DNA from: Halorussus salinus
GTDB taxonomy: Archaea > Halobacteriota > Halobacteria > Halobacteriales > Haladaptataceae
Length of the DNA: 64,000 bases
Direction of reading: 5' to 3'
Assembly (NCBI RefSeq): GCF_004765815.2
Contig: NZ_SBIS02000007.1
Coordinates: 248,001 to 312,000, forward strand
The notes beneath the pieces were generated by a model. That model ran no database searches. It saw nothing but the letters and a program-made list of their open reading frames with translations, and was not told the origin of the DNA. The position numbers and the translations under genes were made by a program. Shown one piece after another: positions 38,455-41,833 of this stretch. Numbering within the stretch: the stretch's first letter is position 1; each line of letters opens with the position of its first letter.

Positions 38455-38495
38455 GTCAGCGTCGGAGGAGTCGGAGAGACGACGCTAACAGCGTC

Positions 38496-38810
38496 TCAGG
38501 GGTCTACTTCGGACGTGACTCGAACCGACAACGATGGCCCGGTAATGCTCCCACCGAGCGAGACGGAGTAACTGGAGATGTTCCCCGCTTCGGACAACTC
38601 CTCCAGCCGCGAGCGGAACGCGTTCATGCACTCGACGACGCTATCCAACCGGTCTACGTAGTCGTCCATCCCCGAGAGAGTCACGTCCTCGTCGGCCGAA
38701 GCGAACGTTTCGTTGACCAAGAGAACCGCTGATTGGAGTTCGGTGATAGAATCTGCCGCTTCGATGTCGTCTTTGAGAACGGCGACCTCGTCCTGATGTA
38801 TTTCACTCAT
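38496..38810 (-). CDS. Small acidic helical protein beside the subtilase (unknown)
   Basis: 104 residues: an acidic helical first 75 residues (DEVAVLKDDIEAADSITELQ, DDYVDRLDSVVECMNAFRSR) and a C-terminal stretch with alternating strand-like residues (SSYSVSLGGSITGPSLSVRV). Not recognised. It follows the subtilase gene (53-nt gap) in the same direction, with a perfect palindrome at its own start, so it may be a separately controlled partner. Confidence 0.6.
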   Translation of the reverse strand: MSEIHQDEVAVLKDDIEAADSITELQSAVLLVNETFASADEDVTLSGMDDYVDRLDSVVECMNAFRSRLEELSEAGNISSYSVSLGGSITGPSLSVRVTSEVDP

Positions 38811-38814
38811 ATAT

Positions 38815-38831
38815 TTCGAATACTATTCGAA
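38815..38831. promoter_or_regulatory. Perfect 17-bp palindrome at the start of the small acidic gene
   Basis: TTCGAATAGTATTCGAA (minus strand) is a perfect inverted repeat about a single central base. It ends 4 nt before the start codon at 38810 and overlaps where a TATA box or transcription start would lie. Good candidate for a repressor site. Confidence 0.65.
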
Positions 38832-38863
38832 ATGGATAAGTTTTCTCTCGGAGCCGTATCGGA

Positions 38864-39991
38864 TCACTCGTCGCTAACCGTTCGGCTCGTCTGCCGGAGA
38901 TACTGTCTCGCCTGCGCGGCGTCCAGCTTGACCGGTGGCGGACTCTGTGAAATCTCGTCGTCTATCTCCGTGCCGGTCTCGACGAGCGTGTTCCGGATTT
39001 CCTCGGGTCCAGAGTTCGGGAACTCCCCCCTGAGCGACGCAACAGCGCCGCTAACGATGGGCGTGGCGAAACTCGTTCCGGCGATAAAGACGACGTTCTG
39101 CTCGTCCTGTAACTCCGGTTTGTGAACCGGCGCGAGGAGGTCGGGTTTCCCTTTGAACGGGCGGACGTTGTCGTTCCACCACCGCTCTCTCCGCCGGTCG
39201 TCACAGGACGCACCCGTCCCACAGGTTCCCATACTACAGAACGGCCCCTGTTCGTGCCCGTCGATGCGGTGATAGTCGGAAACGTCGGCGACGAGTCGGT
39301 CGTCCGTACCGGTATCCGGAACGTACCCGTCGCACTCGTTGACGAAGCCGCCGACCCCGACCGTAGACCGAAAGAGAGCCGGACAGATGACGTGTTCTCC
39401 TCGACGGCCTCGCTCGTTTCCACAGGCGGCGACGACGTTCGTTCCGCCGTCTATCGCCGGGAGGACGTGTTTTCTGAAGACGCACGATTCGGAGCCACAG
39501 TTGTGGTGGTGTCTCCCGGCAGAGATATTGAGTACGTCGACGCCGTCGTCTATCGCTTGTTCGATACACTGGATGATTCGCGCGTTTCCGCCTTCACCGA
39601 TGCTCGGCGACTCCGTGTACGAGACCTCCGAGTCGTCCGACGACTGGAGTCCGGAACCGCGTTGCAGTCGGTGTCGCTCCGCCTTCAATCGGTAGAAGTG
39701 GAATCTGGCGTTCGGGACGATACTCGAAATCACGTCGAGGATTCGATAGCCGTGACCCCACTTGTTCTGGACGTTCTCACCGTCCGGCGAGAAGTCCTCC
39801 CGGTTCCCGACCCGGATGTCACCAATGTCCTCGTCGGGAAGCATGTAGAGCGTGTCCGCGATACCGATAGTCACGGCCTCGCCGCCGTGAGAGAGGTCCG
39901 AGAGACCGAGCAATTCGCTGTACGCGTCGTTGACTCTCCGGCGAAACTGCTCCCACGTCTCGAACCGGTCGGGAACGTTTAGGAGTTTCCC
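38864..39991 (-). CDS. Subtilisin-like serine protease (S8), probably made by -1 frameshift from the upstream gene
   Basis: Catalytic residues are readable: Asp in TIGIADTLYML, His in WGHGYRILDVISSIVPNA, oxyanion Asn in NVVAACGNERG and Ser in IAGTSFATPIVSGAVASL. There is no signal peptide, so it is probably cytoplasmic. No ATG or GTG start was found: the frame is open from the slippery site at 39991 through VPDRFETWEQFRRRVNDAYS, and the first possible codon is a TTG at 39913. It overlaps the preceding I9-like gene in the -1 frame. Either a frameshifted fusion, a TTG start, or a single-base lesion in an ancestral pro-subtilase. Confidence 0.75.
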   Translation of the reverse strand, partial: GKLLNVPDRFETWEQFRRRVNDAYSELLGLSDLSHGGEAVTIGIADTLYMLPDEDIGDIRVGNREDFSPDGENVQNKWGHGYRILDVISSIVPNARFHFYRLKAERHRLQRGSGLQSSDDSEVSYTESPSIGEGGNARIIQCIEQAIDDGVDVLNISAGRHHHNCGSESCVFRKHVLPAIDGGTNVVAACGNERGRRGEHVICPALFRSTVGVGGFVNECDGYVPDTGTDDRLVADVSDYHRIDGHEQGPFCSMGTCGTGASCDDRRRERWWNDNVRPFKGKPDLLAPVHKPELQDEQNVVFIAGTSFATPIVSGAVASLRGEFPNSGPEEIRNTLVETGTEIDDEISQSPPPVKLDAAQARQYLRQTSRTVSDE

Positions 39992-40236
39992 TCGAACCGA
40001 AGCGGACCGTCGACGCTCATCGTGTCGACGGCATCGAGTTCGTCTAACTCCTCGACGAACTCCTCCGGAACGCGAATCTGGAACGTACCGCGCGGAAGTT
40101 CCTGTTGGATTTCGGAATCCCGAGTCTCGGAGACGAAATCGACGACTTCGCTCGGGTTTCCGGAAGTCGTCGCTGTGACGGTGACACAGCGTCCGACCTT
40201 CGGTTTGTTGAGAACGTCGATGAGACTTCGATTCAT
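39979..40236 (-). CDS. I9 propeptide/inhibitor-like small protein
   Basis: 85 residues. The order strand (GRCVTVTATT), helix (PSEVVDFVSETR), strand (GTFQIRVP), helix (EEFVEELDELDAV), strand (DTMSVDGPL) matches the subtilase propeptide/I9 inhibitor fold, including the typical acidic second helix and D-x-M-S-V end. I9 domains act as folding chaperones and inhibitors of S8 proteases, and an S8 protease lies directly downstream. The stop TAA is at 39979-39981. Assignment is by pattern, not by a strong signature. Confidence 0.6.
   Translation of the reverse strand: MNRSLIDVLNKPKVGRCVTVTATTSGNPSEVVDFVSETRDSEIQQELPRGTFQIRVPEEFVEELDELDAVDTMSVDGPLRFEGNS
39985..39991 (-). other. Candidate -1 ribosomal frameshift heptamer
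   Basis: G-GGA-AAC in the reading frame of the I9-like gene fits the X-XXY-YYZ rule. It is followed by one sense codon and the TAA stop. A -1 slip gives GGG-AAA and then runs without a stop into the subtilase frame. Confidence 0.55.
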
Positions 40237-40274
40237 CACTTGGCGGTTGAACGTCCCGACGTACGCGCTTTCGG

Positions 40275-40283
40275 TATAAAAAT
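40275..40283 (-). promoter_or_regulatory. TATA box for the I9-subtilase unit
   Basis: TTTTTATAC on the minus strand, about 39 nt before the ATG at 40236. No CGAA-N4-TTCG palindrome is nearby, so this unit is not under the island's common control. Confidence 0.6.
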
Positions 40284-40441
40284 GTTGAGGGACCGGGAGA
40301 ACTCTCGAACGGCGTACGACGACGATTCGGAATCGAATTAAAAATACGTAGATTTTCCTGAGAACGATTTTCACTGCTCAGAAAATGTTGTACGTTTCTT
40401 CGCGGGCGACGGTGAGCCTCTTCGTCCCCGAGCGTCGGCCG

Positions 40442-41833
40442 TCAGGGGAGTTCGTCGGCGTCGTCGGCCGGGTCGCCAGTTCCCGACTCGGCGGACCCGG
40501 CGAGCGCCCCGACGCGGAGCGATTCGGGACCGTGGCGCACCACGACGCCGGTCAGGTTCGCGGCGAAGACCGCGAATCCCGCGAGCGCCACCGCGCCGCC
40601 GACGACGAGGGCCTCCTCGACCCCGAGGACCTCGCCGCCGACCACCAGCGCGACACCGGCCAGCGCGAGCCAGAAGTCCGCGGCCGCGAGGCGGGCGTCG
40701 TACAGGTCGTCTATCATCGGCACCGGCTCCAGCCCCACGCGGTCGCTGTACCGGCGGACCCAGACGACGAACGGGACGACGTGGTAGAGCGTGCCCAGCA
40801 GGACGAACCCGACGACTCCGGCCGCCAGCAGGTGGCCGATTTCGGGGTGGCCGAACGTCGTCGCGGGGTCGGCCGGGCGCGCGAGCCACGCGGGGAGCGC
40901 CGCGAGTGCCCACGCGGGAAGCGCGGCCGCGACGACCGCGTACCGCGACAGCATCGGCGTCCGTTCGACTTTCGTCTCGTGGAGCTTCCGGGCGAGGACC
41001 GCCGCGAACCCGAGGAGACCCGCCGCGACCAGAAGCCCGCCGACTCTGGCGACCCACTCCGCGCCGACCAGTCGCCCCGCGGCGAGCGCGAGGACGCCGG
41101 GCGTGTAGACGAGTTCTTGAGTGCGCCGGAGCGTCGTGTCCGCGCCGCGAAGTTCGGTCTGCGTGAACATCGTGGCGAGTTGGTAGAGCGCGCCCACGAC
41201 GGTCGTGAGGACGATTCCGAACACCGCGAGCGTCGCGTGTGCGGCGACGACCTGCGGGCGAGCCAGTCCCACGGATGCGAACGTCGGTCGAACGAAGTCC
41301 ACCGCGAGGAGCAATCCGAGCGTCGTCACGAGCAGGACGTGGCCGAGCGCGAGCGCGAAGTGGCGCTCGGTCGCGTCGAGCGCGGGACCGTCGCTTTCGT
41401 CCGCCGACCCGCTCCTCGCGGCCAGCCACAGCGTCCGGCCGACGTTGTAGACGAACAGCCAGAACCCCGCGAACATCGTCGTTCCGGCGACCGGGAGCAA
41501 GTCGAGTCGCCCCGCCAGCAGGAGGCCAGCGAACCCCGCGACCCCGCCCGCGACGAGCGCGAGTTGCGCGCCCGCGAGCCGCCGCGAGTGGAGTTCGACG
41601 CCCGACCAGACCGGGACGAACTGGGTCATCGCGCCCAAGATGGTGAGACAGACCCATCCCACGAGCAGGAGGTGGACGTGCGCGAGACCGTGGAGACCGG
41701 GCGCGAGACCGACCGCGCCGACGAGGCCGAGCGCCGCCCCCGCCAGCAGGAACGCGAAGCCGACGAGGAAGTGCGCGAGGGGCACGACCATCGGCGGCCC
41801 GCGGTCGGCGTCGATACCGGCGGGGACGCTCAT
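40442..41833 (-). CDS. Heme-copper-oxidase-subunit-I-like / NnrS-like membrane protein
   Basis: 463 residues, about 12 membrane helices. Conserved-looking histidines lie in helices: PLAHFLVGF, GLHGLAHVHLLLVGWVCLTI, AAHATLAVFG, GHPEIGHLLAAG and TLYHVVPFVVW. The HxHLLLVGW pattern is like helix II of cbb3-type subunit I and of NnrS, a heme-copper protein of NO metabolism. The full HCO set is not clear, so catalytic activity is uncertain. Its ATG overlaps the stop of the DUF2249 gene (ATGA), so both are one palindrome-controlled operon. Confidence 0.75.
   Translation of the reverse strand: MSVPAGIDADRGPPMVVPLAHFLVGFAFLLAGAALGLVGAVGLAPGLHGLAHVHLLLVGWVCLTILGAMTQFVPVWSGVELHSRRLAGAQLALVAGGVAGFAGLLLAGRLDLLPVAGTTMFAGFWLFVYNVGRTLWLAARSGSADESDGPALDATERHFALALGHVLLVTTLGLLLAVDFVRPTFASVGLARPQVVAAHATLAVFGIVLTTVVGALYQLATMFTQTELRGADTTLRRTQELVYTPGVLALAAGRLVGAEWVARVGGLLVAAGLLGFAAVLARKLHETKVERTPMLSRYAVVAAALPAWALAALPAWLARPADPATTFGHPEIGHLLAAGVVGFVLLGTLYHVVPFVVWVRRYSDRVGLEPVPMIDDLYDARLAAADFWLALAGVALVVGGEVLGVEEALVVGGAVALAGFAVFAANLTGVVVRHGPESLRVGALAGSAESGTGDPADDADELP

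Follow-up and report, generated by a model that had tools for sequence, protein, structure and literature searches.

Programmed frameshifting is rarely described in archaea, as a sequence-only reading of this locus had stated and as two reviews bear out (PMC8211752, PMC5009743). The haloarchaeal siphoviruses HCTV-1, HCTV-2, HCTV-5 and HVTV-1 use −1 frameshifting in their tail-assembly genes, and the shift site of HCTV-1, served by haloarchaeal translation machinery, is G_GGA_AAC, the same heptamer that we describe here (PMC5009743). Those are viral tail chaperone genes, whereas the genes reported here encode a protease and its propeptide in host genomes or plasmids. For cellular genes, reviews list a single demonstrated −1 frameshift, in the alpha-fucosidase gene fucA1 of Saccharolobus (Sulfolobus) solfataricus, and give it as unknown whether other archaeal genes use one (PMC8211752). 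The fucA1 site is A_AAA_AAT, and the shift is not conserved because most relatives among the Sulfolobales encode the full-length protein in one frame; here, in contrast, it is the split that is conserved, and the shorter product is predicted to form a whole domain. The magnesium chelatase of bacteria and methanogens likewise has a conserved −1 site that links two functional parts (PMC3711429), but the site is A_AAA_AAR, and the proteins and organisms are unrelated.

At the level of the proteins, the nearest likeness is to the Tk-subtilisin-type subtilases, in which an I9 propeptide fold is likewise followed by an S8 subtilase, normally in one uninterrupted frame, whereas here the domains would be joined only through frameshifting. 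Free I9-like proteins that act on a subtilase in trans are also known, as in the stand-alone, propeptide-like SUB1 inhibitor of malaria parasites (PMC6993865); such inhibitors have separate genes, whereas here the free form would arise by termination on the same message. The main text of a screen of 1106 prokaryotic genomes, the only part of that source to which this statement applies, mentions neither proteases nor haloarchaea. We found no earlier report of this frameshift gene in a search that missed most subscription papers and supplements, and conserved frameshifting of this type has hardly been described for cellular archaeal genes.

Here we describe a haloarchaeal gene from which programmed −1 ribosomal frameshifting very probably makes two products, a free propeptide-like protein and a propeptide–subtilase fusion. 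There are no expression, proteomic or reporter data for it.

Reading frames at the junction

The minus strand of the window (the whole 64-kb stretch of DNA that was analysed) reads GAG GGA AAC TCC TAA at the junction between a small open reading frame (ORF) and a subtilase gene. The features of the locus are as follows.

40236 (ATG) to 39979, minus strand: small 0-frame ORF, I9-like, the termination product; 85 amino acids plus TAA
39991-39985, minus strand: slippery heptamer G_GGA_AAC, X_XXY_YYZ in the 0 frame, from the sequence and the homologue alignment
39981-39979, minus strand: 0-frame stop TAA, separated from AAC by a single codon (TCC)
38864..39991, minus strand: S8 subtilase, the −1 part of the product; 375 codons plus stop
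39856-39854, 39754-39752, 39418-39416 and 39073-39071, minus strand: protease catalytic codons Asp46, His80, Asn192 and Ser307
39911..39991, minus strand: −1 coding stretch from the heptamer to the first possible start, TTG 39913; it encodes a GK..P..F motif and a predicted helix (residues 13-27)
38496..38810, minus strand: gene for a 104-amino-acid protein directly 3′ of the protease, without a family, from neighbour comparison
38456..40497, minus strand: approximate accessory block holding all three genes, from blastn against relatives

Relative to the small ORF, the protease is read in the −1 frame, which is open over 525 codons from stop to stop (approximately 40441 down to 38864), about 150 of which precede the heptamer. 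The sequence-only reading had claimed a canonical heptamer at this place, a stop-free −1 frame leading into an S8 protease and the absence of an ATG or GTG start for that protease near the junction. All of this is confirmed on the minus strand, and TTG is also absent from the −1 frame ahead of 39913.

The heptamer in the window alone is weak evidence because GGGAAAC is no commoner there than chance would have it (7 occurrences against 9.6 expected); GGA is a rare glycine codon, at 10% in the genes of the window. Judged by such counts, the significance of GGGAAAC comes from comparing loci and not from a single sequence.

Conservation of the heptamer

We searched 391 genomes of the class, three further families, viral contigs and plasmids. 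The family is sparse, occurring in about 5% of haloarchaeal genomes, and a phylum-level sample of 295 genomes yielded only two loci, both already known within the class. A scan of genome contigs with one protein as the query gave no match, and the closer alignment A2 as the query returned five named loci. Members include plasmid pHTUR02 of Haloterrigena turkmenica, plasmids of Halomontanus rarus and Natribaculum breve, and loci in Halomicrobium katesii, Natrinema salsiterrestre and Halalkalicoccus paucihalophilus. Protease identity to the window is 26-39% in a 12-sequence alignment and reached 41-44% over parts of the protein in the initial homologue search. More distant S8 protease matches occur in Enterococcus plasmids and Bacillus/Brevibacillus phages.

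The motif G_GGA_AA[C/T] stands in frame and at the same place in 18 of 18 loci, namely the window and 17 homologues, most of which are 26-41% identical as proteins (L004-L006, L008-L011, L013, L014, L016, L019, L022, L023, L027, L033, L053 and L057). It is G_GGA_AAC in 17 of these and G_GGA_AAT in one, a contig from a viral database (L023, GGGAAAT). When all 18 are set out without gaps around the heptamer, the only invariant columns are those of GGGAAA (6 of 160), and the Gly-Asn that the heptamer encodes are the sole invariant residues of the 18 aligned small proteins. The codon that precedes GGA specifies E, T, Q, R, P or A, always with G as its third base, and the 0-frame stop follows 0, 1, 9 or 10 codons past the heptamer in the homologues. 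Outside the junctions, in-frame X_XXY_YYZ occurs at 4 of 1512 positions in these ORFs.

In the −1 frame, all 18 loci read Gly-Lys from the heptamer on into the protease; L005 carries an additional lesion, which puts its protease proper in a further frame. The loci are related, so these conservation statistics are not independent trials, and a requirement for both Gly-Lys in frame −1 and Gly-Asn in frame 0 would by itself yield the heptamer. No other reason is apparent for both pairs being invariant at this spot. A nineteenth locus (L052, 27% identical to L010) has C_CCA_AAT at the position aligned with G_GGA_AAC, immediately preceded by a stop in the −1 frame. TTTTCGC was rejected as the shift site of L052 because C_CCA_AAT sits at the aligned position.

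Alignment of homologous loci, which the sequence-only reading had proposed as a check, found the heptamer, the frame relation and the missing start all kept across a very divergent family.

Selection and start codons

Purifying selection was compared between the frames along the junction. Upstream of the heptamer, pN/pS is 0.55 in frame 0 versus 1.67 in frame −1; in the overlap it is 0.53 in frame −1 versus 1.08 in frame 0; and past the 0-frame stop it is 0.37 in frame −1 versus 1.22 and 1.29 in the other frames. In ten closer sequences, codon variability peaks at the third base of frame 0 ahead of the heptamer and, beyond it, at the third base of frame −1. As far as these substitution patterns can tell, the heptamer is where selection passes from frame 0 to frame −1.

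These data bear on an alternative in which the heptamer is incidental and the protease gene, merely overlapping the small ORF, has a start of its own, TTG 39913 or another codon, coupled to termination of that ORF. Such a TTG does exist in the window, and the public annotation of the H. rarus homologue places the start at an internal codon, which leaves the protease truncated at its 5′ end. Selection on the −1 frame, however, begins at the heptamer, upstream of any start, and possible starts are not conserved: 10 of the 18 loci have no ATG, GTG or TTG in the −1 frame anywhere from the upstream stop to the catalytic Asp. Initiation at TTG 39913, the outcome that the sequence-only reading had named as its refutation, would give a protein that starts with residue 27 and lacks the predicted helix 13-27, and the TTG is not conserved among the homologues; we count this objection as failed, without proteomic data.

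The family also offers a direct comparison. A related clade with 100/99 support, clade B (L012, L015, L017, L018, L021 and L056), really uses GTG starts: the heptamer is absent in six of six, and a GTG overlaps or lies just past the stop of the small ORF in every one, with the protease in the +1 frame in two and the −1 frame in four. By its sequences, clade B is ordinary coupling and supplies, from within this protease family, an example of an independent start. One further locus, which counts against the frameshift reading, has neither heptamer nor GTG at the stop, and an ATG lies about 12 codons past the aligned junction (L049 1438-1513). An own start for the protease of the heptamer loci would also leave the invariance of GGGAAA unexplained, and we regard it as unlikely.

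Ribosomal frameshifting has to be distinguished from slippage during transcription, which would likewise give two products from one gene, here by way of a fused message. Runs of three identical bases are too short for polymerase slippage, judging by established cases, and those of the site (G3A3) are no longer than that; its X_XXY_YYZ phasing, moreover, matches slippage of tandem tRNAs. We therefore consider slippage of the polymerase very improbable.

It is scarcely credible that a frameshift mutation, pseudogene formation or sequencing error split an ancestral in-frame pro-protease, for although a few members carry extra lesions (L005, L022/L007, L033, L053 and L057), independent assemblies show an identical split, to the base, in 18 loci, the catalytic residues are intact, purifying selection acts on both sides of the split, and no homologue fused in a single frame, with an extra base at the junction as the sequence-only reading had envisaged for its refutation, was found among about 27 loci.

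The lesions in these copies affect the protease, with further frame lesions in L005 and L022 and later interruptions in L033, L053 and L057; the protease there looks as if it were prone to loss. All of them (L005, L022/L007, L033, L053 and L057) keep the heptamer and the small ORF despite the later damage.

Protein products

The protease belongs to Pfam Peptidase_S8 (PF00082, E 1.3e-20), and its structural model has a subtilisin fold. D46, H80, N192 and S307 are present in the window protein and invariant in alignment A1. Six cysteines of the protease (38867-39991), C165, C170, C220, C252, C257 and C263, are also invariant in the 12-sequence alignment and lie outside the usual subtilisin core; their conservation suggests a metal or redox site.

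For the small ORF, no I9 match exceeded the threshold in searches of Pfam (18 members) or NCBIfam (window protein). Its AlphaFold model has a beta-alpha-beta-beta-alpha-beta order (pLDDT 84), and the top Foldseek matches are the propeptides of Tk-subtilisin (E 0.013, probability 1.00, TMt 0.69), to which profile matches are weak (E 0.4). The small ORF is thus predicted, from the model, to have the subtilisin propeptide fold, which would place the shift site at the boundary between propeptide and protease. Inspection by eye, without a program, revealed no obvious signal peptide in either product.

Inhibition, chaperoning and autoprocessing by these products are inferred by analogy with their families, without biochemistry. 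The sequence-only reading had proposed that termination gives a free inhibitor and slippage a propeptide–protease fusion. The two-product layout is supported; ‘inhibitor’ is better put as propeptide-like inhibitor or chaperone, for which there is only evidence of fold.

Proposed mechanism

Under programmed −1 frameshifting, ribosomes would initiate on the small ORF at its ATG, and most would presumably read G_GGA_AAC without shifting and terminate 0-10 codons farther on, releasing the free propeptide-like inhibitor or chaperone. A fraction would slip back by one base, with tRNA-Gly moving from GGA to GGG and tRNA-Asn from AAC to AAA, and would enter the protease frame to make a propeptide–subtilase zymogen. 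Excess free propeptide would then be available to act on the protease in trans, folding or holding it. Slippage in vivo and its efficiency are inferred. That the shift sets the ratio of inhibitor to protease follows from the layout, with the efficiency unmeasured; a regulatory role for the frameshift is plausible and likewise unmeasured.

A stimulatory RNA structure 5-9 nt downstream is usual in −1 frameshifting and is not obligatory. Single-sequence z-scores and alignment folding, an analysis from which pseudoknots were excluded, found no conserved nested stem-loop downstream of the heptamer, and no upstream Shine–Dalgarno-like stimulator was apparent from reading the sequences, without a systematic search.

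Genomic context

The module forms a block of about 2 kb inside the nitrate-respiration cluster of the window. By blastn, the corresponding site holds about 90 bp in one relative (G009) and a phosphorylase-like gene in two others (G013 and G004). In other species of the genus, a nucleoside-phosphorylase-like gene occupies the corresponding site (L075 5253-6092 and L076 4335-5114). Because other species carry this gene there, the site may be one of variable cargo. In H. katesii (L030 588-7882), a type I restriction system flanks the module, which is encoded on the opposite strand, with hsdM/hsdS on one side and hsdR on the other. Within the branch to which the window belongs (L006 1901-2233, L062 and L063), the protease gene is followed by the gene for the 104-amino-acid protein, possibly a third component. 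Together, these contexts suggest an accessory, mobile unit. Searches with models of defence systems gave only weak subtilase and IetS matches and no assignment.

A speculative role, which we put forward as a doubtful possibility, is that the rate of frameshifting acts as a sensor: disturbed translation, through infection, starvation or tRNA shortage, would alter how much free propeptide is made relative to pro-protease and would release a protease inside the cell; the gene would then be a mobile one-gene toxin–antidote or defence module. The patchy distribution, the copies on plasmids and a viral contig, the accessory position in the window and the restriction neighbours in H. katesii are compatible with such a sensor and do not prove it. 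If it were true, antidote and toxin would come from one message.

Implications

Genes of this kind can be missed or truncated by current annotation. In addition to the truncated protease of H. rarus, the protease is missing from the annotation of H. turkmenica in the PLSDB gene table, which is incomplete. The family holds two solutions to one problem of gene coupling: the heptamer loci (clade A) use frameshifting, and clade B initiates at a GTG by the stop codon. The two products proposed for clade A have an obvious logic, free propeptide versus pro-protease. The strongly conserved shift site is found in a group that includes tractable laboratory organisms, which opens frameshifting in archaea, with its signals and regulation, to direct tests.
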